The notes under the pieces: generated by a model
Databases searched by the model: none
The model's input: the letters and a program-made list of their open reading frames with translations, nothing else
What the model was told of the DNA's origin: nothing
Assembly (NCBI GenBank): GCA_015200345.1
Contig: CP054187.1
Coordinates: forward strand, 976,470 to 1,040,469
Direction of reading: 5' to 3'
Length of the DNA: 64,000 nucleotides
Source: Planctomycetia bacterium
GTDB lineage: Bacteria; Planctomycetota; Phycisphaerae; UBA1845; UTPLA1
Translations under genes and position numbers: made by a program
In this document: positions 34,502-56,228 of the stretch, in pieces
Layout of the letters: each line of letters starts with the position of its first letter
Numbering within the stretch: position 1 is the first letter of the stretch

Positions 34502-35314
34502 TCATACCATTTGACCCGTTCGGATTCCTACCCCCCCGTCCTTGACCCCGCGCCGGCCAATGGCCCATTTCAACGTCCGAAACACAAAAACGGGGTTCCC
34601 CGCCAGATACCGCCGCCACTTTCCGATCGGGTCCATCAGAAGTCGGTACAGCCATTCACCGCCCATTCGACACAACCATGCCGGTCCGCGCCGCTCCACA
34701 CCCGCGTAGTAGTCGAACAACGCTCCCACGCACCACTTCACCGGCGCTGTCAGCTTGTGTCCATGTTCGGCCAGCCACAACTCCTGTCGCGGGCTGGACA
34801 TGCCCACGAATACAATATCGGGCCTTGTCGAATTGATGGACTCGATGACTGTGCCGGACTCGGCCAGATCGAAATGACCGTGGTGCGTCCCGGCGATGCG
34901 AAGCGCCGGGTGCGCTCGGGTCAGTGCCTCGGCTGCTTTGTCCGCCACTCCGGGTTGGCTGCCGAGCAGAAAAATCGAAACGCCCGCTTCCGCGCACGCC
35001 GACGCCATGAGCGGAAAGTAATCCGCCGCCGTCATGCGCTCGGGCAGCCGCGCACGGCTCCAGCGGCTGGCCCAGACGAGCGAAGCACCATCGGCATACA
35101 GCAGGTCGCAGCTGGAAAGCACCCGGCGGAATCGTTCATCGCGCCAGGCGAGGTTCATCGTGTGCGCGTTCGCGTAGCAAGCCGTGGTGGGCACTCCGGC
35201 TTTGGCGCGCGCGACGGCCGTCGCCGCGAGCGATGCGATGTCCAGCGGCGCGAGCGGCATGTCCAGCACGTCCACCGCCGGCGGCAATTCAATGTACCGC
35301 GACCAATCGGTCAC
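34502..35314 (-). CDS. WecG/TagA/CpsF family glycosyltransferase
   Basis: The 270 residues contain the GT26 pattern: TACYANAHTMNLAWRDERF, LYADGASLVWASRW, IFLLGSQPGVADKAAEAL, RPDIVFVGMSSPRQELWL and VGALFDYYAGVERRGP. Family members add N-acetylmannosaminuronic acid, ManNAc or a related sugar to a lipid-linked acceptor. The start is GTG at 35314 with a strong GGAGGAAG site. It overlaps the upstream GT4 gene by 26 nt, so the two are coupled. Its product probably extends the lipid-linked sugar made by the priming transferase. Confidence 0.92.
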   Translation of the reverse strand: MTDWSRYIELPPAVDVLDMPLAPLDIASLAATAVARAKAGVPTTACYANAHTMNLAWRDERFRRVLSSCDLLYADGASLVWASRWSRARLPERMTAADYFPLMASACAEAGVSIFLLGSQPGVADKAAEALTRAHPALRIAGTHHGHFDLAESGTVIESINSTRPDIVFVGMSSPRQELWLAEHGHKLTAPVKWCVGALFDYYAGVERRGPAWLCRMGGEWLYRLLMDPIGKWRRYLAGNPVFVFRTLKWAIGRRGVKDGGVGIRTGQMV

Positions 35315-36527
35315 TCGCCTTCCTCCACGGCTTCAGAAGCCGTGTGTAGAGCGCCTCGTACCGACCCACGACATCCCGCGCGTGGAAGCGACGCTGCATC
35401 GTCGCCTGCGCCGCGCGACCCAGCCGCGCCGCAAAGGTCGTATCGTGCAACACGCGACCCAGCGCGTGGGCCAGCAAGTGCGGACGATTCGGCTCGACCA
35501 GCAAGCCGTCGTGTTCATCGGTCAGGGCTTCAGGAATCCCGCCGACGCGCGTCGCGACGATCGGACGAGCCATCGCCATCGCCTCCAGCAGCACGTTCGG
35601 CATGCCCTCGGACTTGCTCGGCAGGCAAACCACGTCGGCCGCAACAATCGCCGACCAGACGTCGCGTGTAAACCCGGCAAGCTTCACGACCTCCTCGACC
35701 TGCCGTTCGAGAATGCGACTTTGGAGCGCTTCGCGATCCGGACCTTCACCCAGGACGATCACACGCACATCAGGATGCGTATCGCGCAGCACCGACGCGG
35801 CGTCGATCAGCGTATCGATCCCTTTCTCATAGCTAAGCCGCGCCAGGGTGAGGATGACTTTTTCATCGCCGCAGCAGCCCCAGCTTGCACGGGCGATTCC
35901 CGCCGCGCGAACATCGACCGACGCCGGCGGTTCCACGCCGGTGTGAATCACCGTGACGTGGTCGGCTTTCATCCCGTGCCGCGCCACGCAATCGGCCTTC
36001 ACGGCCTCCGATACGGCGATGGCGTGCGTGGGAAGTCGCGCGCACGCCGCGTCGATCAGCCAATCGCTGCGGCGCCGCTTCTCGCGGCGATAATCCCCCA
36101 TCGCGTAAACGGTTGACAACACGACTGGAACACCTGCCAGCCGCGCGCCCACCGCGCCGTAGATATCGGCGCGAAGCAGATGGGTGTGAACAATGTCCGG
36201 CTTGAGGCGGGCGATCAGCCGCTGCGCGCGAAACATGGCGCGAGGGTCCAGCTCCCTCGGCACGCCGAGGTCGAACGTCTGGACGCCCAGCGCCTCAAGC
36301 TGCGCCTGCATCGGGCCGCCGCCGTAGAAACAAGCGGCCGACATCTGAAACCTGCGCCGATCCAGGTGCCGCGCGATTTGCAGCAGCCATTTCGTGTCGG
36401 TCTTGATGGCGAACGTGGAAACGAGGTGGAGCAGACGAACCGGCTCGTCCGTCGAGGCCAGCGCGGTTGCGGAATATGCGTTTGTATGCATTCCAAGCAT
36501 GGGATACCCATCCAAACCGCGAGGCAC
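35289..36527 (-). CDS. GT4 family glycosyltransferase
   Basis: The 412 residues have a GT-B fold: LLHLVSTFAIKTDTKWLLQI at the N-terminus, PDIVHTHLLRADIYGAVGAR, LTLARLSYEKGIDTLIDA, and the donor-site motif SKSEGMPNVLLEAMAMARPI (EX7E) followed by VATRVGGIPEAL. It transfers a sugar from a nucleotide donor with retention, probably on the cytoplasmic face of the inner membrane. The frame opens with GTG at 36527, with ATGs at 36500 and 36491 as alternatives; the start is uncertain. The 160 bp upstream (36528-36687) hold no gene I can see. Confidence 0.9.
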   Translation of the reverse strand: MPRGLDGYPMLGMHTNAYSATALASTDEPVRLLHLVSTFAIKTDTKWLLQIARHLDRRRFQMSAACFYGGGPMQAQLEALGVQTFDLGVPRELDPRAMFRAQRLIARLKPDIVHTHLLRADIYGAVGARLAGVPVVLSTVYAMGDYRREKRRRSDWLIDAACARLPTHAIAVSEAVKADCVARHGMKADHVTVIHTGVEPPASVDVRAAGIARASWGCCGDEKVILTLARLSYEKGIDTLIDAASVLRDTHPDVRVIVLGEGPDREALQSRILERQVEEVVKLAGFTRDVWSAIVAADVVCLPSKSEGMPNVLLEAMAMARPIVATRVGGIPEALTDEHDGLLVEPNRPHLLAHALGRVLHDTTFAARLGRAAQATMQRRFHARDVVGRYEALYTRLLKPWRKASDRLVAVH

Positions 36528-36687: not shown

Positions 36688-38898
36688 TCAAACGGCACTC
36701 GGAGCGGCTCGGATCGCCCGCCTTGTCGATGACCTTTTCCGCGGCCCGCGCGCCGCGACGACGGCAAACAAGTCCGAAAAAGCCCCGGCCATGTGTTCGA
36801 CGCCGAACTCGTGAACCACCCGCCGCCGCGCGGTCTCGACAATCCGATGACGCAGGTCGGCATCGGTCGCCAGGCGTTCCACCGCCAGCGCCAATCCCTC
36901 CGGATCGGCCGGGCGCGTCAGCAATCCGGTCTGCTCGTGGACCAGAAACTCACCGAGGCAGCCGACGTTGGGTGCGACGAACGGCACGCCGCACACCGCC
37001 GCCTCCAGCATGCTGACGCTGAAGCACTCGATCTCGCTGCACAGGCACGCCACGTCCAGCCCCGGCAGCAGATCGGGCACGTCGTGCCGCGCGCCAAGCA
37101 ACCGCAGCCGCTCGTGATCCAGCCCCGAGGCCTCGGCGGCTGCCAGGACCGCGTCGCGGTTCGGTCCGTCGCCGATGATGAAAAATCGCATGTTCGGGAA
37201 ACGCCCCGCCAGCGTTCGCGCCGCGCGAATGAAGGCATCGTGTCGCTTTTCCGCGCGCAGGTTCGCGACGATCCCCACGGAAAATTGATCGTCCGCGAGC
37301 CGCAGCGCGCGCCGAGCCGCGCTGCGCGACCGGCCAATGAAGGCGTCCAATTCAATCGCGTTGCGAATCACGGCGATTCGCCCGGCTGGGACTTTCTCAT
37401 GGCGAATCATCGCATGGCGCTGTCGTTCACCCAGCGCCACGAACACGTCCACAAACCGGTACAACGCGCGATTGGCCGTCTCGAAGTGCTGATGCCCGGC
37501 GCGCGGGAACCAGTGCGACCAGACGACCACGGGCGTGCGACGCGTCGCCGCGGCCACGGTGGACCAGAACATCCGATCGCCGCCGCTGTGCGCCACCGTG
37601 ACGAGGTCGATGGCCTCGTCTCGCAGCAGCCGTCGAAGCCGGGGAATGACCGCTACATCCGTCTTGTGATGGAGCAATTGCTCGTGGACCAAGATACCCC
37701 GTGCGCGAAGGTCGGCGGCGAGCGGGCCGGCATCCTTCAGGCAGGCAATCACCGGTTGCACGCCGCGCGCGGGCAAATGCTTCGCCAGCGACGCCAGCAT
37801 CAGCTCCGCGCCGCCGGGTTCGAGCCGATTGGTGACAAACAACACACGCAGAGGTCGATCGATCGCCCCGGTGCGATCCCTCGCGCCGATCGACGCAGGC
37901 CCATTGAGCAATACGCCGGATGTACGACGAAGCTCGTCCCCGCGCAGCGCCGGTTGCGGCTCACGCGTCAAAGACGACCGATGGCGGATGCGCTCGGCCG
38001 CGAACGCGCGCACGCCCTCGATCATCCCCCGCAGCTCCAGCCAGTGCTCGCGGCGCGTCAGCCCCCAGGCCGCATGCATGATGGCGATCACCAACAGGCT
38101 CCACACAATCAGCGCCCAGCGCCCCGGCGACATGCGGCAAGTCCTGGTGAGGATGTACAGGTAATTTCGGCTCGTCATGAAGCCGAATCGGTGCGGGTCG
38201 CCCCGGCCCCCGGTCTCGCGCCGATGGACGACGTTCGTCTGAATCGCCTCCAGCAGCCAATGGCGCGGCGCAAGGCGATAGCCCATCTCGCGGTCTTCGC
38301 CCAGCGCGTACTGCGTGAGCGACTCATCAAAGGGATTCGCCAGCACCACGTCACGCCGCAACGCCATCGCCGCGCCCGACAAATGCGCCAGAGGTCGAAC
38401 GCGATGCGGCTCCCACGCCAGCATCGCAGGCGGCGCGCCGCGCGCGGCGGAATTCACGTCCGGCCGCACGCGCCACCAGCCCGCGATGCGATAGCCAAGC
38501 TGCCAGATTCGGGCAGCGCGTCCTTGAAGACGCGGCTCTTCGAGGACCGGCGAAACGGCTGCGACGCGCGGGTCCGCCATGATCGCCGCGATTTCCTGCA
38601 CGAAATTCGCCGCACAGGTCACGTCGTCGTCGAGGTAAATCAACACGTCGGCCGTCGCCCGCTGCGCGGCAACGTTGCGCGACCGCGTCAATCCGGGTTC
38701 GTGCTTGCGATGGTAGATGAACCCGATATGGTGATGCGCGGCATCACGCGCGAGGTCGCCTCGTGCGACGTCGTCCATGCGGCCGTCGTCAAGGATCAGC
38801 AATTCATCGGGCTTGCGCGATTGCGACCAGACCGATGCGAGCGTTTCGCGAAGCGCTTCGGGCCGATCCTTCGTACAGATGACAATCGCGATTCGCAC
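36688..38898 (-). CDS. Fused GT2 and GT4 glycosyltransferase
   Basis: The 736-residue protein joins two enzymes. Residues ~1-280 form a GT2 (GT-A) domain: RIAIVICTKDRPEALRETLA, LLILDDGRMDD and the acidic LIYLDDDVTCA motif. A hydrophobic segment follows (ALIVWSLLVIAIMHAAWGL), and from ~345 there is a GT4 domain (VLFVTNRLEPGGAELMLASL, GIVANLRAEKRHDAFIRAAR, and CSEIECFSVSMLEAAVCGVP as donor motif). It could add two sugars in succession. The GTG at 38898 leaves a 34-nt gap after the flippase; a longer frame would overlap it. The central segment would tether it to the inner membrane. Confidence 0.88.
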   Translation of the reverse strand: MRIAIVICTKDRPEALRETLASVWSQSRKPDELLILDDGRMDDVARGDLARDAAHHHIGFIYHRKHEPGLTRSRNVAAQRATADVLIYLDDDVTCAANFVQEIAAIMADPRVAAVSPVLEEPRLQGRAARIWQLGYRIAGWWRVRPDVNSAARGAPPAMLAWEPHRVRPLAHLSGAAMALRRDVVLANPFDESLTQYALGEDREMGYRLAPRHWLLEAIQTNVVHRRETGGRGDPHRFGFMTSRNYLYILTRTCRMSPGRWALIVWSLLVIAIMHAAWGLTRREHWLELRGMIEGVRAFAAERIRHRSSLTREPQPALRGDELRRTSGVLLNGPASIGARDRTGAIDRPLRVLFVTNRLEPGGAELMLASLAKHLPARGVQPVIACLKDAGPLAADLRARGILVHEQLLHHKTDVAVIPRLRRLLRDEAIDLVTVAHSGGDRMFWSTVAAATRRTPVVVWSHWFPRAGHQHFETANRALYRFVDVFVALGERQRHAMIRHEKVPAGRIAVIRNAIELDAFIGRSRSAARRALRLADDQFSVGIVANLRAEKRHDAFIRAARTLAGRFPNMRFFIIGDGPNRDAVLAAAEASGLDHERLRLLGARHDVPDLLPGLDVACLCSEIECFSVSMLEAAVCGVPFVAPNVGCLGEFLVHEQTGLLTRPADPEGLALAVERLATDADLRHRIVETARRRVVHEFGVEHMAGAFSDLFAVVAARGPRKRSSTRRAIRAAPSAV

Positions 38899-38932
38899 GT
38901 CGCCGCCCCCGGCCCCCTCTCGCGGCCTCAAA

Positions 38933-40675
38933 TCAGGTTCGCCCGTTTCGCCATCGCCCCATCGCGCGCAACGGCGGCACATGGCGAAGCGACTCGAGAA
39001 TGTAGCCGTTGATTCGCTGACGCTCGTCCGCGGAAAAGACCAGCTCCGTCTTCCACGCGACCAGCAGCACCAGCACGGTCCCCACGGTCAGCAGGAGCGG
39101 ACTTAGCGCCAGCAGGCAGGCCGCCCCCAGAACGATAAACGTGCCCCGGTCCAGTCTCGTGCACTCGGCTTGAATCAACCAGACACAGAGTGCCAGCGAT
39201 GTGGCAATCGCCAGGACGCCGCACCAGGCGGCGCTGTCCAGACCGCGCGGCCCGCTGAATCCGGTCGTAAAAAACCATGACGCATGGCCCGCGGCCCATT
39301 GCCACCCCGCCGTACGCATCACGCGCGCTTGGTGAGGCCCCGCCAGCCAGAACGCATACAACACGTTCGCGGCCACACCGGCCGCCCACGGCCAGAACAT
39401 GTGCCGCGTCTTCTCAATCAGGTGGAAATGAATGGGCAGGAACGCGAGATACGCCCCCATCAGGAAGAACAACAGGTGAATCGGGAGAATCGCCGCGCCG
39501 TCGGCGTACTCGACGCGAAACATCAGAATGATATAGTCCTTCGCCAGGGCCAGCATCGCGCAAAACACGAACAACGCCAGGCCCGTCCCGCGGAACGCCA
39601 GCGACAACTGCCGCTGCGCCGCCTCGCGACCGCGATTCTCCCAGGTCTTCGTCACGATCGTCATGACCACGGTCACCACCGCCACCGCACCGATCAGGAC
39701 AAATTGCCCGATCTGGCGCACGGCGTTGAAGACGGCGACCGCCTCCTGCCCCTGAATCTTGTTAAGGTACCACGCCGGATAGTAGACCAGCACCTGCCAG
39801 GTGATGCCGGCGAGCGTCGTCCAGACGCTGAACTTGAGCAATCGCCGGGCAAAGCCGCCTTCCTCCGTCAGCTCGTGCTGCCCGTGCCAGCGCCCGATCG
39901 TGCGGACAAAACCGAACCCGAACCACGTGATCGGCAGCGCCAGCGAAATGCCGTACACCGCCGTCAGCGTGAAGGCGCTAAGGTGACCCGTGACGATGGC
40001 CACGATGCTCAACGCGAGAAAGAGCAATCCGTGTGCCATTTCCATGACCGATAGGGCCGTGAACATGCGCAAGCCCTTGAACACGGCCAGGAGATAGAAA
40101 TAGACAATCAGCAGAGCCGTCACGACGGCAGACAGGCGAGCCAGTTCCGGCGCGTCGGCCGAGAACAGCCGCCGCACTTCCGGATCGGTGAACTGGGCGT
40201 AGAAAAAGTCGCCCAGCGGCTGCGCGAAGATACAGATGACGCCGACGCTGATCATCGTGATCGCACCGAGCAGTAGAAACGATTTGCGCACGAACGCCAG
40301 GAGCGTGCCCTGCTTCTCGTGCTGGGGGACGTACCGCGTGACTGCTTCATTCAGTCCGAGACTGCACAGCGGCGTCATGACGTTCATCACCGCGAGGATC
40401 ATCGTCAGCAGACCGAACTGCTGCTGCGTCATGAACCAGGTCAGCAGGATGATGCGAAAAAAGTTGATCAGCCGGAAAGCAACGGTCGCCGGCAGATACA
40501 ACCCCATCGCCTGGTGCAGCGGCGAGTTGGAGAACATGCCCGTCGGCGCGCCGTGAGACGTCTGGCCCAGGGACTCTCCGCCGGCGTCGCCGTTCAGTGG
40601 TTCGTGCGCCATCGCCGGCGGAGCCGCTTCCGCCGCCGCATCACCCTGTCTCGAAATGTGCAGCACGGCTTTCAC
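38933..40675 (-). CDS. Oligosaccharide flippase (Wzx-like)
   Basis: The 580-residue protein has 12-14 hydrophobic segments in the MATE/Wzx pattern, for example VAFRLINFFRIILLTWFMTQ, FGLLTMILAVMNVMTPLCSL and GLNEAVTRYVPQ, which is characteristic of polysaccharide flippases. About 50 polar residues precede the first segment. It would move the lipid-linked repeat unit across the inner membrane. The start GTG overlaps the stop of the O-antigen-ligase-like gene (GTGA). An unusual segment with a WAAGHASWFFTTGF loop lies towards the end. Confidence 0.88.
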   Translation of the reverse strand: MKAVLHISRQGDAAAEAAPPAMAHEPLNGDAGGESLGQTSHGAPTGMFSNSPLHQAMGLYLPATVAFRLINFFRIILLTWFMTQQQFGLLTMILAVMNVMTPLCSLGLNEAVTRYVPQHEKQGTLLAFVRKSFLLLGAITMISVGVICIFAQPLGDFFYAQFTDPEVRRLFSADAPELARLSAVVTALLIVYFYLLAVFKGLRMFTALSVMEMAHGLLFLALSIVAIVTGHLSAFTLTAVYGISLALPITWFGFGFVRTIGRWHGQHELTEEGGFARRLLKFSVWTTLAGITWQVLVYYPAWYLNKIQGQEAVAVFNAVRQIGQFVLIGAVAVVTVVMTIVTKTWENRGREAAQRQLSLAFRGTGLALFVFCAMLALAKDYIILMFRVEYADGAAILPIHLLFFLMGAYLAFLPIHFHLIEKTRHMFWPWAAGVAANVLYAFWLAGPHQARVMRTAGWQWAAGHASWFFTTGFSGPRGLDSAAWCGVLAIATSLALCVWLIQAECTRLDRGTFIVLGAACLLALSPLLLTVGTVLVLLVAWKTELVFSADERQRINGYILESLRHVPPLRAMGRWRNGRT

Positions 40676-42285
40676 CGCCGCCCTCCTCGCGCAGCGGGCG
40701 CGGCGCCGGCGATCAGACCGTTTGGCCGCGGCGGCACACGAGGCCTGCCTGCGGACCGGGCGCGAGCGGCCGGGTCACTGGAACGCCGCAGGGGTGACGG
40801 GGAGAGCAATTCATTCAGCGCGACGGGCACGGCGCTAAGGCCGAAGAAAAGACTATTGGCGAAGGGGTTGTCGCTGGTCTCGCGGAAAGTGCCGTCGATG
40901 AAATACGCCATCGCGAGAATCCAGTACAACACGAGCAGGTCCGGCCCGATCAGGCGCGGACTGGTACGCGGCAGCTTGCGGTAAAGCTGAATGCTGAACC
41001 GCACGAGCGCGATCACGGTGAGCAGATAAAGCGTGATGCCGACGATGCCCGTTTCAGCGAGGATCGAGAGCATGTTGTTGTGTTCAAGGGCGGTCGTTCC
41101 GAAGGCGTAAAACGGGCTGGACGGATCGCGTGCGAAGTTCGGCGCATGATCGCGAAAATGCCCGAAGCCGACGCCGAAGAACGGATGCTCCTTCACGATT
41201 TCCCAGGTCATCTGCGCCAGACCGATGCGCAGAAGGATCGGCTCGGTGTCGGTCAGACCGCCCTTGCTGCGGTCGTCCGTCATGAAATTCCCCATGTTCA
41301 CAACGCCGATCACGAGAACCAGCGCGATCAGCAGCGACACAATAATGACACGGGTGGCCCGGCGCTGCGAGTACATCGCCCAGATCATCAGGCACAGCAC
41401 GAAGCTCAACCACACCGAGCGCGTGTACGTCCAGAAAATCGGCGGTAGCATCGCCGCGTTCAGCAGCAGCAGCCACCACCGCCCGACGCTGCGATGGTTG
41501 CGCGCCAGCACCAGGTTGTTAAAAAAGCAATAGCACAGCGCCAGCCCCATCGCGGGCGACAGCACGAACGGCCCACGCACACGGCCGAAGTGAATACCGA
41601 TGCTCGGGTCGGAAATGAACCGGGGAAAGATCAGGGCGTTGAGCTTGAAGCGCTCGCACCAGCCCGTAAAAGTCAAATAGACCGAGAGAATCACGAAAAA
41701 AATCGCCAGGCGCCGAAAGTCCCGCTCGTTGCGAAAAGCGTGCAGAACCAGGCCGAACACAACGAACGGAAAGATGTAGCCGCCGATGAGGCGATAGTGG
41801 ACGGTGACGACCGAGCGCGTCTCAAATCCGGAGACCAGCGCCGAAGCGAAGAAGTACGTCGCCAGCGCCAGCATGTACCCGCTGACCGGCCAGGCATGGC
41901 GCACCGGCACGCGCCCCAGCGCGATCATCGCCAGGAGCAGCAAGGCGAGGACGACCAGCCCGATACGCGGAATCGTCAGCGCGAAAAAGAGCGGCACCGA
42001 GACGCGCCAGAACTCCTCATGCAGCGCGATCAGCGTGACAAACCAGATCAGCACCGCCACGAGCAGATCGCCCTTGACGGCGTAAAACAGCAGCGCGGTC
42101 AACCCGCCCAGCGCCGACCAGAAAATCAAGACGCTTACCGAATCCGTCGCGAGCGTGGCAGAGAAGGCGATCCCCGCCGCGATCAGCAGCAGGATACCCA
42201 GCGACAGCAGCAGTGGCGTTCGTTGCGCAGTGAGTGATGCCAAGGCTGATCCATCCCCGCGGCCGCCGCTGAACCTGCCTCGCAC
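40672..42285 (-). CDS. O-antigen ligase/polymerase family protein
   Basis: The 537 residues contain ~11 membrane segments and the Wzy_C region with a large loop: FWTYTRSVWLSFVLCLMIWA, then EHPFFGVGFGHFRDHAPNF and EHNNMLSILAETGIVGITLY, the signature of WaaL/Wzy-type proteins. It polymerises lipid-linked repeat units or transfers the glycan to an acceptor at the periplasmic face. The C-terminal ~40 residues are Pro/Arg/Ala-rich and cytoplasmic. The start is GTG at 42285. It overlaps the flippase by 4 nt, giving the Wzy-Wzx pair expected in such loci. Confidence 0.88.
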   Translation of the reverse strand: MRGRFSGGRGDGSALASLTAQRTPLLLSLGILLLIAAGIAFSATLATDSVSVLIFWSALGGLTALLFYAVKGDLLVAVLIWFVTLIALHEEFWRVSVPLFFALTIPRIGLVVLALLLLAMIALGRVPVRHAWPVSGYMLALATYFFASALVSGFETRSVVTVHYRLIGGYIFPFVVFGLVLHAFRNERDFRRLAIFFVILSVYLTFTGWCERFKLNALIFPRFISDPSIGIHFGRVRGPFVLSPAMGLALCYCFFNNLVLARNHRSVGRWWLLLLNAAMLPPIFWTYTRSVWLSFVLCLMIWAMYSQRRATRVIIVSLLIALVLVIGVVNMGNFMTDDRSKGGLTDTEPILLRIGLAQMTWEIVKEHPFFGVGFGHFRDHAPNFARDPSSPFYAFGTTALEHNNMLSILAETGIVGITLYLLTVIALVRFSIQLYRKLPRTSPRLIGPDLLVLYWILAMAYFIDGTFRETSDNPFANSLFFGLSAVPVALNELLSPSPLRRSSDPAARARSAGRPRVPPRPNGLIAGAAPAARGGRR

Positions 42286-42348: not shown

Positions 42349-43362
42349 CTAGGTGAACTGATAAACCAGCCCCGGAATCGGATCGGTCCGCTGATTCAGC
42401 ACAAGGCCCAGGCAACGCACCCCGGCGAGGTCCAGCCGCTTTTTGGCCTCGGCCGCTGTTTCACGCGGCGTGTCGCCGGCTTTGACGACCAGCACCGCGC
42501 CATCGACCAGCAGACCCAGCACCTGCGGGTCGGGATACGTCTTGGCGTTGGCGACATCGAGGATGACGTGATCAAACCGCTGCCGCAGTTGCGCGATCAG
42601 GCTCTGGGTCTGGCGGCTCTTGAGCAGGCCGAGCGGGTGCTCCGAAACCGGACCGCCGGCGATGACATACAGCTTGTGCCCGTTCCGCACGTCGACCGTC
42701 TGAATCGCGGCGTCCAGCGTCGCGCGACCGTTCAGAACGTCCGTCAATCCCGGCGACTCACGCAGGCCCATCAGCGAGGCGACTTGCGGATGGCGCACGT
42801 TGAAATCAACGAGACAAACGCGCAATTCCTTGTCCGCCTCGGCGCCGGTCAGGGCCAGGCCCACCGCGATCTGCGTCGCGCCTTCGCCCGCGCGTGCGCC
42901 CATGACAATCACCGACTTGGGCGGCGACTCATCGACGGCGAAGAAGATGTTGCCCCAAAGCTGGCCCAGCTCGGCTTCGGACTTCTCGCGCAGCTTGCAC
43001 TTGGCAGCCACGGACGGACCGCCGATCGCGGGACGCGATGGCGCCGGCGATTCCTTCGCCGGAGAAGTCGCCGTTTTCTCATCGAGGAACTCGGCCTGCG
43101 GCGGGGAAAACGCCAGATCGTCCAGATCGGACGTCGAGGTCGGACCGCCGTTTATTCTACGAATGTCTTCAATCGCCTCGTCGATCTTCTCAACCTCGTC
43201 CGTCCAGTCCAGCTCGACCACGTCCTCGTCCGATTCGCGCGGAAGTTCCGGCGGATTCTTCGAGGAAGCCGGCGGCGGCCAGATCTGCTCCGGCTGCGGG
43301 GGCGGCTCGCGCTCCCCTTCGCGTCGTTTCTTCGGATCGGGTTGATCGGGCAACTGCGCCAC
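42349..43362 (-). CDS. CpsD/CapB-like ATPase with degenerate nucleotide motifs
   Basis: The 337 residues have an acidic, proline-rich N-terminus (~1-110) and a ParA/BY-kinase fold (KSVIVMGARAGEGATQIAVG; RVCLVDFNVRHPQVASLMGL; FDHVILDVANAK). In active kinases the first motif ends GEGKS/T; here it is GEGATQ, so the catalytic lysine is missing. The second Walker A' aspartate is Asn, Walker B is altered, and no tyrosine-rich tail is present. It probably regulates the Wzz-like partner encoded upstream without phosphorylating it. GTG at 43362 has AGGGAG 9 nt upstream. The gap to the Wzz gene is ~134 nt. Confidence 0.85.
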   Translation of the reverse strand: MAQLPDQPDPKKRREGEREPPPQPEQIWPPPASSKNPPELPRESDEDVVELDWTDEVEKIDEAIEDIRRINGGPTSTSDLDDLAFSPPQAEFLDEKTATSPAKESPAPSRPAIGGPSVAAKCKLREKSEAELGQLWGNIFFAVDESPPKSVIVMGARAGEGATQIAVGLALTGAEADKELRVCLVDFNVRHPQVASLMGLRESPGLTDVLNGRATLDAAIQTVDVRNGHKLYVIAGGPVSEHPLGLLKSRQTQSLIAQLRQRFDHVILDVANAKTYPDPQVLGLLVDGAVLVVKAGDTPRETAAEAKKRLDLAGVRCLGLVLNQRTDPIPGLVYQFT

Positions 43363-43496: not shown

Positions 43497-45122
43497 CTAC
43501 GCCGGAACCACCAGCCGCCGCCCGCGTTTCTTCACCGTGCCCAGCACCGGCACACCCAGGTACCGCTCGGCCTCGACGGTCGAACGCACCGTGTGATCAA
43601 AGTGATCGGCCAGGAAGGCCAGCGCGATCCCCAGCAGCAGCGACACCAGGCCCGCCACGATCGTGTAAATCATCGTCTGCGGCGAGATGGGCTTGTCGGG
43701 ATCGGGCATGGATGCCTCATCCAGAATGCTGATGTTCACCGGTTCACGCGAAAGCAACCGCGTCGCCATGGCATAGACGCGCTCCTGCTCCAATCGCTCG
43801 CGATGCTTCTGGGCGACTTCAAACTCGTTCTTCAGACGGGCATACTCCGCCAGCTTCGCCTGGACCTCGGCCCGCTCCTGGGCCACCTCTTTGACCAGCC
43901 CTTCGTTCAGTTTCTTCTGCGCTTCGCGGGCCTGAATGCTCGATTCCAGCCCCTTGCTGTACGCCACGATGCCGGCCAGCGCGTGCCGCTTCGTGCTGCT
44001 GACCTGGTACTTCAGGTACCGCACATCGCGACTGTCCTCCGTGAACTGCCCCTCGGCCTTGGCCAGCCGCGCCATCAGCATCGTCAGGTTCTTGGCAGTC
44101 TCGACGAACAGGACGTTGTCATACAGCAGCGAGGCCGGCACAGCCGCCATCGCCGCTTCGATCTGTTCGTCGGTCATCTTCTCGATGCCGCCCGGTTCGA
44201 AGCACGCCGCCGGCAGTTTCTCTTTGAACACCTGCAACAGCGACCGCTCCCGCGCGAGGTCCACGCTTAAGCCCGCGTCGCTCTCACGAATCTTGGTGTA
44301 AAGCACCTGAACGCCGTGTTCGGTTCCCGAACGCAGCAACTGCTCGAGCACGCCGACGTCGGCGGCGTTCTCCTGGATGAAATCGTGATACGCCTGCTCG
44401 CGCGCCTTGTATTCCTTGTCATAGCTCGCCACCACTTCCGTCATCAGCCGCTCGGCCGGCTCGTTCAGCGCCTGTTGCAGCTCCTGATAGCGAACGAGGT
44501 ACATGTCCGCCAACGCGCTCGCCGCCCGGTAGGCGTTCTGGAACGACGCGGGATCATCGCGATCGGCCGGGTAGTCCACTTTGATGGTGAACGTCTCGGT
44601 CATGCCGACCTGCTCGCCACCGGGGGTTTCGAGCTTGACGGCTTTTTGAAAGTCGATGAACGCAGCCTGATCTTCTTGAAGTAATTTGTCAACTTTTGGC
44701 TGGACCTTCTCGCCGTTCAGGAACACCATGGCGCCACGAAGCGCCTCCACCACCTTGCCATCCGGCTGTTTTTCCGCCTCGCGCCAGGCGCGGCGGTGCA
44801 TCTCCCATTGCTCATAGAGCCGGGGGTTCTCGGCGAGCACCTTGGTCCGCGCCAGCACCAGATCCGACATCACGATCTGCTGCTGGGCCTTGACGAAAAC
44901 TTCGAGCGTGCGCTCGGGCGAGTCAAGGCTCAACGGGTTCTTGTTCATCGGCCGCTTGTAGACCAGGCTGACCTGGCTGCGGTACTTCAGCGGGAACCAG
45001 TGCTGACAGCCGTACCAGGTGCCGCCCGCGCCCACAATGAAGATGACGAGGATCTTGCCCCAGTGCTCGAAGAGAATCCGGAGGATTTCCCGAAGCGATC
45101 GTGTTCCGTAGGCCGTGCTCAT
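43497..45122 (-). CDS. Wzz/PCP-type polysaccharide chain-length protein
   Basis: The 541 residues have an N-terminal membrane segment (ILVIFIVGAGGTWYGCQHWF), a long coiled-coil periplasmic region (~150-460) and a C-terminal segment (TMIYTIVAGLVSLLLGIALA) preceded by the proline-rich PDPDKPISPQ typical of PCP proteins. The end is FDHTVRSTVEAERYLGVPVL, the usual cytoplasmic tail where a kinase domain may be fused; here it is separate. It controls chain length and links the inner membrane to the Wza channel. GGGAAGCG precedes the ATG. The large periplasmic domain fits PCP-2a proteins. Confidence 0.9.
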   Translation of the reverse strand: MSTAYGTRSLREILRILFEHWGKILVIFIVGAGGTWYGCQHWFPLKYRSQVSLVYKRPMNKNPLSLDSPERTLEVFVKAQQQIVMSDLVLARTKVLAENPRLYEQWEMHRRAWREAEKQPDGKVVEALRGAMVFLNGEKVQPKVDKLLQEDQAAFIDFQKAVKLETPGGEQVGMTETFTIKVDYPADRDDPASFQNAYRAASALADMYLVRYQELQQALNEPAERLMTEVVASYDKEYKAREQAYHDFIQENAADVGVLEQLLRSGTEHGVQVLYTKIRESDAGLSVDLARERSLLQVFKEKLPAACFEPGGIEKMTDEQIEAAMAAVPASLLYDNVLFVETAKNLTMLMARLAKAEGQFTEDSRDVRYLKYQVSSTKRHALAGIVAYSKGLESSIQAREAQKKLNEGLVKEVAQERAEVQAKLAEYARLKNEFEVAQKHRERLEQERVYAMATRLLSREPVNISILDEASMPDPDKPISPQTMIYTIVAGLVSLLLGIALAFLADHFDHTVRSTVEAERYLGVPVLGTVKKRGRRLVVPA

Positions 45123-45215: not shown

Positions 45216-46376
45216 TTACGGGCCGATCTGGCCGCCGATGTTCGGCGGACCGACCTGCCGCGTCTTGAACGACGTCGGGTCGGCGCGGATCTCATACCCG
45301 AAGTTCATGCCCACCACGCCGCTGTAGGGCACGACCGACCGGATGCCGCGCGTAAAGACCATGTCGATCCAGTCGTTCATCTCCGCCAGTCCGGTGCGCG
45401 GCACATAGATAATATCGCCATCAGCAAGGTACAAGTCATGACGGAACTTGCTGCCGTTTGGCAACAATCCTTCCGGCGACGCCTTCTTCGCGTTCAGCAC
45501 TTCGGCAAGATTGAACAGGATCGCCTGCGGAATCGGCAGATATTGCCGACGCACGAGGAGGATCTTCGTCTGGTCCGCCCGAACCGACGGACCGCCCATG
45601 TGAATCAGCGCCTGCGTGATCGTCATCGGCGCGTGTGCCGTGATCATGCCCGGACCGTACACTTCACCCATCACGTAAATGCGCGTCGGCGCGAACTCCA
45701 GGGTCTGCACCGTCGTCTCCACTTCCTGCAAATCGTTCTCGACGTATAGCTGATCCAGAATCTTCTTGGCCTGGTGCACCGTCTTGCCCGCCACCAGCAC
45801 CTCCCCGATGTACGGCAGGTCGATCGTGCCGTCCGGCTTCACCGGAACCAAACGCGACTGACCGCGCGGGGCCGTGGTGATCGCCTTTTTCAACTCGACG
45901 ATCTTCACGTTCGCCGCTTTCACCGCCACCGTCACTTCCGGTTCGCGGATGTAGCGCGCGTACGCCTGGCGAAGCTGCTCCTCCAGCTCCGTTGCCGTGC
46001 GACCGGCTGCCCGAATCTGACCAATCAGCTTCAATCGAATCGAGCCGTCGGCCTGGACCGTTCGCTCCTGATCGAGTTGCTCCTGGTAGGGGAACTCGAC
46101 ATTCACAATGTCCTCGATCTTCAGCTCATAGGGTTTGTCCGAAACGATGTTCTTGACCTGGTAAATGATTTCCAGCACGTCGCCCGGCTGAAGCCGATAG
46201 GGCGGCCGGTCGAGCAATTGCTCGGGCAGACCGGTCCCGCCGACGAACGGCTGGTACAGCTCCGGCGGTTCGGCCGGCGCTGCATCCGGAATCTTGTGAT
46301 CGGTTCGAGAACAGCCCCCCAGGGCCGCGATCGTTGCGATCGTCATGAGTACGACTTGTCGCATTGCATTGGCCAT
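45216..46376 (-). CDS. Wza-like polysaccharide export lipoprotein
   Basis: The 386-residue product has a lipoprotein signal (VVLMTIATIAALGGCSRT, lipobox LGGC), the Poly_export domain (YRLQPGDVLEIIYQV; RTVQADGSIRLKLIGQIRAA) and SLBB domains (PDGTIDLPYIGEVLVAGKTV; RIYVMGEVYGPGMITAHAPM). It forms the outer-membrane export channel for the polysaccharide. A GGAG lies 9 nt before the ATG. It is followed by the Wzz-like gene after ~93 nt, which fits one transcript. Its presence implies an outer membrane. Confidence 0.93.
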   Translation of the reverse strand: MANAMRQVVLMTIATIAALGGCSRTDHKIPDAAPAEPPELYQPFVGGTGLPEQLLDRPPYRLQPGDVLEIIYQVKNIVSDKPYELKIEDIVNVEFPYQEQLDQERTVQADGSIRLKLIGQIRAAGRTATELEEQLRQAYARYIREPEVTVAVKAANVKIVELKKAITTAPRGQSRLVPVKPDGTIDLPYIGEVLVAGKTVHQAKKILDQLYVENDLQEVETTVQTLEFAPTRIYVMGEVYGPGMITAHAPMTITQALIHMGGPSVRADQTKILLVRRQYLPIPQAILFNLAEVLNAKKASPEGLLPNGSKFRHDLYLADGDIIYVPRTGLAEMNDWIDMVFTRGIRSVVPYSGVVGMNFGYEIRADPTSFKTRQVGPPNIGGQIGP

Positions 46377-46430: not shown

Positions 46431-47294
46431 CTACTGTGGCACGATCACCGCGCCGGGAGCGTGTTGCTTGACTTTCCCCAGCGCTTCCTGCGCCTGGCTC
46501 AACCTCAAATACTGTCCGACGTACACCATGTGCAGCGTCTCGCCGTCACGCTGCCGCTTCTCGGTTCGAGCAGAATGGCCCGCGGAGCGCAATTTCTGCG
46601 CCTGCTTCGATGCCGTGTCAGCGTCGCGATACGCACCGCACTGAATCGAAAAAAAATCGCCGGGCCAAGCCAGCATTCGCTGTGTCTGATCGGTAATGGA
46701 ACTGCCGGGATACCCTCGGACGACCGCGCCCCACTGCTCGCGTGCGTTTTTCCATTCACCCAATTGCGCCAGGCAGACGCCGTAGCGGAATCGCGCCAGG
46801 TCGTAAGGAGGTCGCTCGGGCAGATTGCGAAGCGCCAGCCGGAAATGCTCGGATGCCTTCTTTGCGTCACCCGCTTCAAAGGCCAGTTCGCCCGCCGTTG
46901 CGTGCGCCCGGGCGATCAGATCGCTGTTCTTTGAAAGCGCCAGACAGCGCTCGATGTCGGACTGCGCCGCGCCGCGATGGCCGCGATAGGCCAGGCACTG
47001 CGCACGAAGGTAGTACGCCTCGGCGGTTTCGAGAACGGAAGGATAAGCCTGAATCACTTCATCCAGCATGGACTTGGCCGAATCGTACCGGCCCGAGCGG
47101 AATTCTTTCTCCGCCTGAACCATCTGCGTCTTCGCGTGCGGCGGCAATTCGACGCATCCGATCACGCCAGGCAACAAAGCTGCACAAATCACCCAGCGAG
47201 GACGCAGCCGGCAAACCGCGCGCGCTTGCGGGGATCGCAATTGCAGCCGCACCGGCCGTGAGCGGGAATTAGACGTCCAGACCAGACCGTTCAC
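46431..47294 (-). CDS. TPR lipoprotein with C-terminal SPOR domain
   Basis: The ~287-residue protein has a hydrophobic stretch with lipobox (VICAALLPGVIGCVELPP), tetratricopeptide repeats (AKSMLDEVIQAYPSVLETAE; AAQSDIERCLALSKNSDLI; KKASEHFRLALRNLPERP) and a C-terminal SPOR domain (FFSIQCGAYRDADTASKQAQ ... VYVGQYLRLSQAQEALGKV). SPOR domains bind denuded peptidoglycan. The start is uncertain: GTG at 47294 has GGAG 5 nt upstream, but a longer frame begins at 47513 and GTG at 47252 would give a shorter leader. It heads the exopolysaccharide operon, upstream of the Wza-like gene. Confidence 0.8.
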   Translation of the reverse strand: MNGLVWTSNSRSRPVRLQLRSPQARAVCRLRPRWVICAALLPGVIGCVELPPHAKTQMVQAEKEFRSGRYDSAKSMLDEVIQAYPSVLETAEAYYLRAQCLAYRGHRGAAQSDIERCLALSKNSDLIARAHATAGELAFEAGDAKKASEHFRLALRNLPERPPYDLARFRYGVCLAQLGEWKNAREQWGAVVRGYPGSSITDQTQRMLAWPGDFFSIQCGAYRDADTASKQAQKLRSAGHSARTEKRQRDGETLHMVYVGQYLRLSQAQEALGKVKQHAPGAVIVPQ

Positions 47295-47561
47295 ACGCGC
47301 TCCATCGCATGGCTCCCCGCCCTCGCGGTTCGGGAAGCGCTTCGGCGAAATCCGTTTCCGGCGCAGGGTACGGACCATGCGCACGTCATCCTTATCGGTG
47401 CCCTGCCGTCGCGCTTTAGCTCTGGTTGCGGTCGGGCCGTCGGAACGACGAGTCATCCCGGCAATGATGCAAGTCGATCGGAACGTGGTGTTGAGTTGTT
47501 GTTCCCGGCTCATGCCTCACGGCTCTTCGCATTCAATCACAAATCCATGTCCTATCGGACT

Positions 47562-47589: not shown

Positions 47590-47667
47590 GCCCGCCGAAC
47601 GGATGGGAGCTGGTTGCGGCGCGCGACGACGCTCCGGAGTCCGACACCTGCACGGCGGACCTGGCAA

Positions 47668-50643
47668 ATGCAACGGACTGTGCTTGCCCTCATCGCGGCT
47701 ACCGCCATCCTCCACGCCCATCCCCCGGTCGTTTCCGGCCAAGCCACCGCGCCGCCCGACCTCGCCGAGATTCAACCAGTCATCCCGCCCGGCATTAGCG
47801 ATTTCAACCTCGAGATCACCGGTCGTCTGGCCTACACCTGGGACAGCGCCGACGGCGAACACGTCACGGAAGTGCTTGGCGATTTCGTCGCGAACATGGG
47901 CGGCACGCGGTTGAGCAGCAAGGATGCCGTCATCTGGTTTCGCAACGCGAAATGGCAGGGCAAGCCGTACATCGATCTGGAGATTTTTCTTTGGCAGGAC
48001 GCCGAAGTGATCCAGCCGGCCGGCACGCGTGAGTCCGGTCCGGCGTTGCTGGTGACGCTCCGCACGTTCGGGCGGCTCGTCCTGAACTCCGCAGCGCACG
48101 CCGCGCAGTCCGATGAAGACGGCGAGCTATATAAGGAAGCCCGCAAGGCGCGGCGATTGCTGGACATGGCGCCCGCACCGGCGGCTGAATCGGCTGATTC
48201 GCCGGTCAGCGTCACGTCGAAGTCCGCCGCCCTGGCGCGCTTCGCCAAGCCGAAGCCCATCAAGGCGATCAACTTCACGGCGCAAAGCCTCACGTCGCAG
48301 GTCATTGACGGGCAGAACGTTGTCATCGCGCAGGAGGATGTCTTCGTTTCGCAAGGCGCGGCGTCGCAAAGCGGCGAGTACGTTGAGCTTCGCGCGAATG
48401 CGGCCGTGCTTTATCTCAAGCGCGAGCAGGTCGGCAACGCGATTCCCGGATTGATCGGCGGAGAATCGCGCAAGCCGGCGCGCAGCAGCGCGGCCTCGCA
48501 GCCGACGGAGGGCGGTCCGCCGCGCGTCAGCGGGGACGCGCGCGATCAGACCGACGCGGCGGCGCTCGAGGCGTTTGTGTCGGCGGTTTACTTGGAGGGC
48601 GATGTCGTGCTGGCGCGCGGGGATCGCATGATTCGCGCGCCGCGTTTGTATTACGATTTCGACGCCGATCGCGCCTTGATCCTCGATGCCGTCACGCGGG
48701 CCGTCGAGCCGACGCGCAATCTGCCCATTTACGTTCGGGCGCAGGAGATCCGCCAGCTCTCTTCGACGGAATACGAAGCAAACAAGGCGCAGTTCACCAC
48801 GAGCGAGTTTCATACGCCGCACGTGGCCATCGGCGCGGACCGGATCTATCTACAGGACAAGACGCCGCGCAACGAGTCCGGCGACGTCGTCGGCGTGCAG
48901 GCCGGCGCCTACAAAGCGTACAACACGACGCTCAACCTTGAAGGCATCCCGATTGCGTACTGGCCGTTTGCCGCCGGCGATTTCTCTACCGATCGCCAGG
49001 CGTTTCGCTCGGCCAAGATCGGCTACAACGGCGACTTCGGGTGGACTGCCGAAACGCGCTGGTCGCTGTTCAACCTGATGGGCCTGACCCCGCCGCCGGG
49101 GTTCGATGCGACCCTCAAGCTCGACTACTTCACCGATCGCGGCCCGGCGGTCGGCATCGACTCCGACTACCAGAACGACGACTACTACGGTCTGTTGCGT
49201 ACGTACTACATCAACGACGGCGGCTCGGACGAACTCGGCCCGGAGCGGAGCGGCCCGCCGGATCACGAGAACCGCGGGCGTGCCACGTGGCGACATCGCC
49301 AGTTTCTGCCAAAGGACTGGGAGCTGACGCTCGAAGCGTCGTACATCAGTGACGACAATTTCATGGAGCAGTACGAGCGCAACGAATGGGAGAACGGCAA
49401 GGAACAGGAGACGCTCGCTTACCTGCTCAAGCGGCAGGACAACTGGCAATTCAGCACGCTGCTCAACTACCGCATCAACGAGTTTCTGACCCAGACCGAG
49501 CACATGCCGGACAACGTGTTCAGCCTGATCGGCGAGCCGCTGGGTGAGATCGCGACCTTGTACAGCGAATCGCGCGTCGGTCTGGTGCGCTATCGGCCCG
49601 ACGATCGCCGCTATTTCGACGGGCAAAACCGCGACGACAACACCGGTCGCACCGGCACGGTCGTACGGGGCGATACGCGTGAGGAATTGCAGTTCCCGAT
49701 GCCCGATCTCGGCCCGGTCAAGCTCACGCCGTACCTGACCGGTCGCGTCGGCGGCTACGACGACGGCCCCAGCGGAGACGACCCGGACAACGAGAGCGGC
49801 AGCATCGGCCGCGTGTTTGGCGCGTATGGCGTGCGCGGCAACATGCTGATGAGCAAGTCGGACGACTCGATCGAATCGGAGTTCTTCGACCTGCATCGAC
49901 TGCGACATGTGATCAAGCCGGACTTCGCAGTCTGGAACGCACATGGGAACCGCGCGCCGCTGGAGATGACGCCGTTCGATTCCGGCGTGGAAGACATCGA
50001 CGATTTCGGCGGCGGCACGCTCGGCCTGCGCCAACGCTTGCAGACCAGGCGTGGCGGTCCGGGCAAATGGCGCACGGTCGACTGGATCGTCTTCGACGTG
50101 GAGGCGGGTTTCTTCAGCGACGCCCAGAAAAACGAGGACACGCATGGCGACTACATCCTCGCGCGGCCGGAAGACAGCATCTCCTCCAACTTCATCGCGA
50201 CGAACTTCCAGTACCGCATCAGCGATTCGACCGTAGTGGTGTACGATGGCGTCTATGACACCAACCGGGGCAACATGGGCAACTCAAACATCAGCCTGGC
50301 CGTCGAACGCGAGCCGCGAATGGCCTACTTCGTCGGCTGGCGCTACATCCACGACACCAACAACAGCCTCGTCGGGGGCGGGTTCAATTACAAGCTAAGC
50401 GAGAAACACACCGTCGGCCTGCGCGAGTTCTACGATGTGGAAGAAGGCCGCAACTACTCGACCGAGTTGATCTACATCCGCAAGTGGCCGCGGTGGTACA
50501 CAGCGGTAGCGTTGGACGTGGACAAGGCGATCGACGACGTGGGCATCAACTTCTCGATCTGGCCGGAAGGCGCCCCGCGCCTGGGCCTCGGCTCGAAGCG
50601 CTACACGGGCTTGGCGGATTCGGTGGGCATCCGTCCAAGGTAA
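47668..50643 (+). CDS. LptD-like (OstA) outer-membrane protein
   Basis: The 991-residue protein has a signal peptide (VLALIAATAILHAHPPVVSG), an OstA-like beta-jellyroll region in ~200-430 (INFTAQSLTSQVIDGQNVVI; EGDVVLARGDRMIRAPRLYY) and a long C-terminal region with many aromatic, amphipathic strands (WTAETRWSLFNLMGLTPPPG; TLKLDYFTDRGPAVGIDSDY), as expected for the LptD barrel. LptD inserts lipopolysaccharide in the outer leaflet. The ATG at 47668 is taken as start; 18 more in-frame codons lie upstream. It is monocistronic behind a consensus promoter. A divergent relative with another cargo is possible. Confidence 0.82.
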   Translation: MQRTVLALIAATAILHAHPPVVSGQATAPPDLAEIQPVIPPGISDFNLEITGRLAYTWDSADGEHVTEVLGDFVANMGGTRLSSKDAVIWFRNAKWQGKPYIDLEIFLWQDAEVIQPAGTRESGPALLVTLRTFGRLVLNSAAHAAQSDEDGELYKEARKARRLLDMAPAPAAESADSPVSVTSKSAALARFAKPKPIKAINFTAQSLTSQVIDGQNVVIAQEDVFVSQGAASQSGEYVELRANAAVLYLKREQVGNAIPGLIGGESRKPARSSAASQPTEGGPPRVSGDARDQTDAAALEAFVSAVYLEGDVVLARGDRMIRAPRLYYDFDADRALILDAVTRAVEPTRNLPIYVRAQEIRQLSSTEYEANKAQFTTSEFHTPHVAIGADRIYLQDKTPRNESGDVVGVQAGAYKAYNTTLNLEGIPIAYWPFAAGDFSTDRQAFRSAKIGYNGDFGWTAETRWSLFNLMGLTPPPGFDATLKLDYFTDRGPAVGIDSDYQNDDYYGLLRTYYINDGGSDELGPERSGPPDHENRGRATWRHRQFLPKDWELTLEASYISDDNFMEQYERNEWENGKEQETLAYLLKRQDNWQFSTLLNYRINEFLTQTEHMPDNVFSLIGEPLGEIATLYSESRVGLVRYRPDDRRYFDGQNRDDNTGRTGTVVRGDTREELQFPMPDLGPVKLTPYLTGRVGGYDDGPSGDDPDNESGSIGRVFGAYGVRGNMLMSKSDDSIESEFFDLHRLRHVIKPDFAVWNAHGNRAPLEMTPFDSGVEDIDDFGGGTLGLRQRLQTRRGGPGKWRTVDWIVFDVEAGFFSDAQKNEDTHGDYILARPEDSISSNFIATNFQYRISDSTVVVYDGVYDTNRGNMGNSNISLAVEREPRMAYFVGWRYIHDTNNSLVGGGFNYKLSEKHTVGLREFYDVEEGRNYSTELIYIRKWPRWYTAVALDVDKAIDDVGINFSIWPEGAPRLGLGSKRYTGLADSVGIRPR

Positions 50644-54254: not shown

Positions 54255-56228
54255 ATGGCCATGTCTGCCGCTTCCCCACCGCTTGGTCTCCACACTCGCC
54301 GTACCGGGTGCATTCTTGGCACGGCGGGCCATATCGACCATGGCAAGTCGTCGCTCGTGCAAGCGCTGACCGGGACCAATCCGGACCGGTTGCCGGAGGA
54401 GCAGGCGCGCGGCATGACGATCGAGTTGGGCTTCGCACAGTTGAGCTTGTCACGGGATGACGGCGCGGCGTGTCCCATGTCGGTCGGCATCGTCGATGTC
54501 CCCGGACACGAACGGTTTGTCCGCACGATGGTCGCCGGGGCGACGGGCATCGACTTGGCGATGCTGGTGGTCGCGGCGGACGACGGGGTCATGCCGCAGA
54601 CGCGCGAGCACGTGGAGATTCTTGATCTGCTGGGCATCGTGCGCGGCGTGATCGCGATCACGAAAGCCGACCTCGTCCGGGAGGATCGAATCGAGATCGT
54701 CCGCGAACAGATCGCCAAGCTGGTATCGGGGCTGCCGCTGGCGGAGTGGCCGGTCGTGGTGGTATCGGCACGCAGCGGACGGGGTCTGGATGCGATTCGC
54801 CGGACAATTGCCGAGCTCGCGGGCGAGTTGCCGGATCGCTCCGCGGGAGATGTATTCCGTCTGGCGATTGATCGCGTGTTCGCCGTTCATGGCCGGGGCA
54901 CGGTCGTGACGGGATCGGTGTTGTGCGGTCAGGCAACGACGCAGTCGACGCTGGAACTGCTGCCGGCCCGCGTCACCTGCCGAGTACGCGAGTTGCAGAG
55001 CCACGGCACCGCGGCGACGCGAGTCGGGGGCGGACAGCGGGCGGCGCTCAACCTGACCGGCATTGATCGCGAGCCGATCGAGCGCGGCATGGAGCTGGCG
55101 ACGCCGGGTTATCTCACACCGACGCGGTACGTGGACGCGCGCGTGCGATTGCTGCGTCGCGGCGAGCGGTCCTTTCGCTCGCACCAACGCGTTCGCGTCT
55201 GCATGGGCACATGCGAAACGCTGGCCATGCTCGTTGTGATCGGCGCACGAGAAATCGAACCCGGCGGCGACGCCCTTGTGCAACTGCGGTTCGCCGATCC
55301 GGTCGTCTGCGCCCACGGTCAGCGTTTCATCCTCCGCAATGAGACGGCCCAAGTTACACTCGGCGGCGGCGCGGTCATCCGGCCGGTTTCACAGCGATTA
55401 CGACGCGCCCAGCCGGATGTCGCGGCGTCTCTGGAGCGCTCCGAGTCAGCCGATGCGCAGGTTCGCCTCGAAGAGGCGTTGCGGGTCGCGGGATTCGAAT
55501 CGGCCACGCCGGCCGGACTCGCCTGCGCGGCGAGCTGCATGATCGGCGAGGTGTCGCCGATGCTGAACGCCCTGCGTGATCGCGGCGTGCTCGTTCGCGT
55601 CACGCCGGCGTGCGAAGTGCATCGTGACGCGATGGCGGCACTGGAGAATCGCGCAATGGCCATGCTGTCCCGGCATCATGCCGCGAATCCGGCGCAGCCC
55701 GGTCTCTTGCGCGATCGATTCGTCACCTGGCTGGAGAAGCGGTCCGGCGCGGGCATCGGCCGAGCCGTCGCCGCGCGGCTCGAACAGACCGGGCGCATCG
55801 TGGCGCGCGGTCCGTACGTCGCCGATCGGGCGTTTCAAGGCGCGGCGTCGGCGGAGGACGCGGCGCGGTTGGAGCGAATCGTGGAGGAGATCACGGCAGC
55901 GGGATTCGATCCTCCGGTTTGGTCGTCGCTTCGCGCTCTGACAGGCGTTTCCAGACCGCGCAACCGGGCGTTGGAGGAGCTCGCGCGGTGCGACGCGCGG
56001 CTTGTGCTTATGGCACCCCAGCAATTCATTGCCGCCTCGGTGTTGGCGCGGTTCGAGAAGGCGGTGCGCGAGCTTGGCGCGGGCGGCCGGCGTTTCACGC
56101 TGGCGCAGGTTCGCGATGCGCTGGGGTTGTCGCGCCGGGTGGTGCAACCGGTGCTGGAACATCTGGATCGCGCGCGCGTGACGCGGCGCGTGGGCGATGA
56201 GCGTGTGCTGGTCGAGGGCGAGCAATGA
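54255..56228 (+). CDS. selB: Selenocysteine-specific elongation factor
   Basis: SelB delivers Sec-tRNA to UGA codons that have a SECIS element. The 657 residues contain an EF-Tu-like G domain (GTAGHIDHGKSSLVQALTGT; DVPGHERFVRTM; ITKADLV), domains II-III (RVFAVHGRGTVVTGSVLCGQ) and a C-terminal set of winged helices (FTLAQVRDALGLSRRVVQPV) that bind SECIS. The length is normal for bacterial SelB. The ATG at 54255 is used (a second at 54261). It overlaps selA by 4 nt. This shows the organism makes selenoproteins, but none is recognised in the window. Confidence 0.95.
   Translation: MAMSAASPPLGLHTRRTGCILGTAGHIDHGKSSLVQALTGTNPDRLPEEQARGMTIELGFAQLSLSRDDGAACPMSVGIVDVPGHERFVRTMVAGATGIDLAMLVVAADDGVMPQTREHVEILDLLGIVRGVIAITKADLVREDRIEIVREQIAKLVSGLPLAEWPVVVVSARSGRGLDAIRRTIAELAGELPDRSAGDVFRLAIDRVFAVHGRGTVVTGSVLCGQATTQSTLELLPARVTCRVRELQSHGTAATRVGGGQRAALNLTGIDREPIERGMELATPGYLTPTRYVDARVRLLRRGERSFRSHQRVRVCMGTCETLAMLVVIGAREIEPGGDALVQLRFADPVVCAHGQRFILRNETAQVTLGGGAVIRPVSQRLRRAQPDVAASLERSESADAQVRLEEALRVAGFESATPAGLACAASCMIGEVSPMLNALRDRGVLVRVTPACEVHRDAMAALENRAMAMLSRHHAANPAQPGLLRDRFVTWLEKRSGAGIGRAVAARLEQTGRIVARGPYVADRAFQGAASAEDAARLERIVEEITAAGFDPPVWSSLRALTGVSRPRNRALEELARCDARLVLMAPQQFIAASVLARFEKAVRELGAGGRRFTLAQVRDALGLSRRVVQPVLEHLDRARVTRRVGDERVLVEGEQ

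Follow-up and report, generated by a model that had tools for sequence, protein, structure and literature searches.

The gene at 42349..43362 on the minus strand of the window, that is the whole stretch of 64,000 nucleotides analysed here, probably (we put this at about 70%) encodes a BY pseudokinase, a scaffold that completes a bipartite, phosphorylation-independent PCP-2 with the adjacent Wzz-like protein. The design is already known from Myxococcus (EcpK/EpsV) and Caulobacter (HfsB/HfsA), and the planctomycete family is most likely a deeply conserved further case of it; no planctomycete study of the protein was found in the literature searched. According to this proposal the CapB/Wzc-kinase fold would no longer transfer phosphate. 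The pseudokinase would form the cytoplasmic half of the PCP-2 and the Wzz-like PCP the other half, and it would bind the cytoplasmic tail of the PCP as CapB binds CapA. Such binding would stabilise or time the PCP around Wzy and the Wza-like exporter, and polymerisation and export would proceed without a cycle of tyrosine phosphorylation.

The gene and the motifs of its product are located as follows.

42349..43362, minus strand: stand-alone BY-kinase-like pseudokinase gene, 337 aa from GTG 43362; a low-complexity N-terminal region of about 130 aa is followed by the BY-kinase-fold domain
42940..42978, minus strand: helix 2 region, EAELGQLWGNIFF, EX2RX2R ring-contact motif lost
42871..42900, minus strand: loop derived from Walker A, GARAGEGATQ, in which codon 42877-42879 gives Ala and not the catalytic Lys
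42787..42813, minus strand: Walker A' LVDFNVRHP, first Asp kept, Asn at the second position
42541..42570, minus strand: Walker B HVILDVANAK, with the Asp retained but not the TPP
42352..42381, minus strand: C-terminal PIPGLVYQFT (PIPxFLYR in the family), without a Tyr-rich tail

The coordinates and sequence of the frame in the first-pass annotation were correct on re-reading. We prefer the start at GTG 43362 to the longer TTG 43380 because the GTG and a GGAG-like ribosome site upstream of it are found at the same position in most orthologs of family f1, while the TTG-extended frame is broken in a sister species (G001).

The loss of the Walker A lysine, the central claim of the annotation, was confirmed: GARAGEGATQ has Ala in place of Lys, and the following Ser/Thr is retained and then followed by Gln. 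The single protein as query had no match among named genome contigs, and a profile search then gave named relatives in ten Planctomycetota/Phycisphaerae MAGs. Extended to 298 genomes of the class, the profile search found orthologs in several families. The resulting group, set by profile score and hence independent of the residue at the Lys position, has 46 members from 46 genomes, and the substitution that a homolog search was to check proved conserved throughout. Lysine is never found at the position (46/46), which holds Ala in 65%, Val in 21%, and then Thr, Ser or Gly. Homologs with a normal GKS/T motif, which would have spoken against the annotation, do not occur in the group, and among its neighbours the lysine is kept only in L106 (family f14); 26 related domains of the same class have it. 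In a 197-genome sample of the phylum nothing outside the class came near the group (maximum 141.5 bits, against at least 175 within it). The source genome, a single contig of 3.88 Mb, has two further BY-kinase domains, one fused and Wzc-like (NGKTT) and one stand-alone (REGKS), both with Lys.

Ka/Ks between the two congeneric species is 0.037 for the pseudokinase domain and 0.038-0.052 for neighbour genes, and we therefore consider the gene to be under ordinary purifying selection. A sequencing error or a pseudogene is ruled out by these low values together with the 46 Lys-less orthologs.

For the trees, the Lys column and the two columns adjoining it were left out. The 46 orthologs form one group with SH-aLRT support of 93 in the first tree and 84 in a larger one, both below the starred level of 95. 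L106 adjoins this group and has the same gene order and an intact GEGKT. Other Lys-less groups, with Arg for the Lys in f8/f5 and Ser in the fused proteins of f68, lie near it with weak support (26). One ancestral loss of the lysine with regain in L106 and several separate losses fit these sequence trees alike. The L106 protein itself (L106:6895-7674, genome G128) keeps the Lys, but its Walker B Asp is changed to Glu and its ring-motif Arg is absent.

Lysine-less proteins of other kinds were also seen. The stand-alone BY-kinase-like proteins L117, L118, L121 and L130 have Arg at the position (GEGRS/GDGRS), and one beside a PCP (L170:6585-7484, G392) has Val (NEGVST). Among fused forms, the PCP-kinases L138, L139, L143 and L153 (f68) have Ser (DGSTS, EGSTG, DGSTT, DRSTT) and an altered Walker B, and the Wzc-like L171 / L030 (G116, f11) and L157 (G159) have GGGATT or SGVST in place of GKT/S.

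The remaining motifs of the domain are changed to different degrees. In the alignment an invariant Trp (46/46) takes the place of the second Arg of EX2RX2R. Nine Lys-containing relatives have a residue in this column; eight of them keep the Arg, and L106 has Cys. In active kinases this contact area is reported to be indispensable both for trans-autophosphorylation and for the synthesis of polysaccharide (PMC3795738). The alteration of Walker A' was overstated by the first-pass annotation: the first Asp is conserved in 97%, and Asn at the second position is found in 46/46 orthologs but also in 34% of the Lys-containing relatives, hence it is not diagnostic. For Walker B the claim holds for the TPP after the Asp, which is changed, and fails for the Asp itself (97% in orthologs, 96% in relatives). 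The loop Gly, the Ser/Thr and the two Asp residues are each 97-100% conserved in the orthologs. The tyrosine cluster is indeed absent: the final 45 residues hold 0-3 Tyr in the Lys-less group and up to 14 in Lys-containing relatives. Yet one Tyr, that of the C-terminal PIPxFLYR, is conserved in 42 of the 43 sequences having that column. The motif is also seen in some Lys-containing relatives. Thus the Walker A Lys, EX2RX2R and the Tyr-rich C-terminus of active BY-kinases of the CapB/Wzc type are all missing.

The fold, described earlier as intact in outline, is supported by the structure prediction. The domain model (pLDDT 89.5) superposes on CapA1B1 with Z 29.0 and rmsd 1.5 over 198 residues, and its best structure matches are the BY-kinases CapAB, VpsO, Wzc and Etk. 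In the fold comparison BY-kinases gave Z 23-29 and MinD Z 17.5. By sequence, VpsO and CapB are the closest solved relatives, and the best NCBIfam match is the polysaccharide tyrosine-autokinase family TIGR01007 (E 6.8e-31), where the score of 107.4 bits narrowly missed the cutoff of 108.05.

The gene lies in a polysaccharide locus with the following neighbours.

35289..36527, minus strand: glycosyltransferase GT2, conserved order, function predicted from reading the sequence
36688..38982, minus strand: glycosyltransferase GT1, conserved order, function predicted likewise
38933..40675, minus strand: Wzx-type flippase (Polysacc_synt 1.1e-14)
40672..42285, minus strand: Wzy-type polymerase/ligase (Wzy_C 8e-18)
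43497..45122, minus strand: partner PCP, Wzz/CapA-like, 541 aa, weak GNVR match, without kinase domain
45216..46376, minus strand: Wza-like OPX outer-membrane polysaccharide export protein (Poly_export 1.3e-32)
46431..47513, minus strand: TPR-SPOR protein, with whose gene the conserved block begins
47614..50643, plus strand: lptD homolog, in family f1 the divergently oriented neighbour of the locus

The conserved gene order runs TPR-SPOR, OPX, PCP, pseudokinase, Wzy, Wzx and two glycosyltransferases; in f1 it is flanked at one end by the divergent lptD. The PCP is directly upstream of the pseudokinase, or fused to it, in 36 of the 39 loci inspected, the window counted in; in the other three (L040, L043 and L049) no PCP was detected near the pseudokinase. 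The cytoplasmic tail of the partner PCP carries the conserved sequence DHFDHTxRSxxxAERYLGVPVLG. In its fold, absent catalytic Lys, lack of a Tyr-rich tail and a kinase-less PCP in the pathway, the protein agrees with a BY pseudokinase of the EcpK/HfsB kind, the Walker A' and B Asp being retained.

In one locus (L115:313-2547, G266) the PCP and a Lys-less pseudokinase share a single open frame of 745 aa, for which a stop lost through an error in the MAG could also account. We modelled the C-terminal part of this fusion (pLDDT 88.9). Aligned from model residue 7, it matches CapA1B1 (4jlv) with Z 33.9 and rmsd 1.6 over 226, and the helix and strand of the PCP tail sit where the CapA segment sits on CapB. 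It should be noted that the predictor's alignment included canonical fused Wzc rows, which biases the model to the canonical arrangement; an earlier fusion alignment with separate PCP tails misplaced the tails and was left out of the folding. The model therefore supports, without proving, a docking of the PCP tail on the pseudokinase like that of CapA on CapB. The proposal in the first-pass annotation, a CpsD-like pseudokinase acting through a Wzz-like partner, is the best supported by the shared Lys loss, the adjacency, the fusion and the model. The absence of catalysis and an effect on polymerisation are inferred, as is, from the model only, binding to the tail.

For the scaffold speak the losses of the Lys, the ring motif and the Tyr tail, the purifying selection, the gene order, the fusion frame and the modelled fold; against it speak the conservation of the Walker A Ser/Thr and of the Walker A' and Walker B Asp, and the three loci in which a PCP was looked for and not found. 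Judging from the conserved residues, the remnant of the catalytic site may do more than hold the fold. One could thus think of a variant of the scaffold that works as a nucleotide-binding switch, with no kinase activity, where occupancy by MgADP or MgATP alters the grip on the PCP. Nucleotide binding without catalysis is plausible because Lys-to-Met mutants of CapB and Wzc still hold nucleotide, as in CapA1B2(K55M)/ADP-Mg (PMC3795738) and the Wzc-K540M MgADP entries, and the loop Gly belongs to the retained residues as well. However, these residues could serve loop folding only, and it is the catalytic Lys that usually makes contact with the phosphates; we regard the switch as possible but rather unlikely. 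Equally tentative is the thought that the family might be a natural and old counterpart of Wzc K540M across a class of Planctomycetota, its PCP being run by nucleotide binding and not by tyrosine phosphorylation.

It seems improbable that the protein is still active as a kinase or ATPase, with an Arg close by taking over from the Lys and the lone C-terminal Tyr or a different protein as the target. Many orthologs read RRGDGA in the loop, and an Arg or Lys in the two positions preceding the loop Gly is commoner in the Lys-less orthologs (34/46) than in the Lys-containing relatives (5/26), a comparison that ignores kinship and whose counts are not independent since the sequences are related. The Arg is moreover missing in 12 orthologs, and the family has lost the ring motif for trans-phosphorylation. 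The conserved C-terminal Tyr would offer a target, but its motif occurs also in Lys-containing relatives and is therefore unconnected to the Lys change. Very improbable is a MinD/ParA-like role in positioning the exporter within the cell with no regulation of the PCP: the fold is that of the MinD/ParA superfamily, but BY-kinases match far better in structure, the tyrosine-autokinase family ranks first among NCBIfam models, and gene pairing and the one fusion are with a PCP.

The scaffold has an experimentally shown precedent in EcpK/EpsV of Myxococcus xanthus (PMC12004946, 2025), and a phosphorylation-independent bipartite PCP model has been proposed there for EcpK/EpsV and HfsB/HfsA. Set beside EcpK by description, our protein shares the stand-alone BY-kinase fold without a working catalytic motif or Tyr tail, the kinase-less partner PCP, the Wzx/Wzy pathway and the predicted docking of the PCP C-terminus; the difference is that EcpK is reported to lack any Walker motif, while the nucleotide site of the planctomycete protein is largely preserved. 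HfsB/HfsA of the Caulobacter crescentus holdfast, as described in PMC12004946, is likewise a stand-alone pseudokinase with a kinase-less PCP, though from another phylum and for another polysaccharide. The authors of that paper also suggest, on a sequence survey they cite, that the type is widespread. Staphylococcus aureus CapB/CapA (PCP-2b) has the same split of kinase and PCP genes, the same fold and the helix-strand docking modelled here, but the catalytic Lys, EX2RX2R and Tyr cluster of CapB2 are all absent from the planctomycete family. The E. coli Wzc K540M laboratory mutant resembles it in that the Walker A Lys is replaced while the fold and the rest of the nucleotide site are largely intact; unlike it, Wzc retains the ring motif and Tyr tail, and the planctomycete substitution is natural and old.

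The family would extend phosphorylation-independent PCP-2 systems to Planctomycetota, the substitution being held over several families of the class with strong synteny. Further, since it departs from active kinases at few residues and the Lys-containing L106 shares its gene order, it allows a clean comparison to show how the kinase reaction contributes to the control of polysaccharide chains.

A genome search for a locus-linked Tyr phosphatase found no CpsB/CapC phosphatase; two LMW-PTP genes are present, both distant from the locus. No tRNA gene was found within the window, which carries homologs of SelB and SelA (selenocysteine machinery) at 54255-57676.
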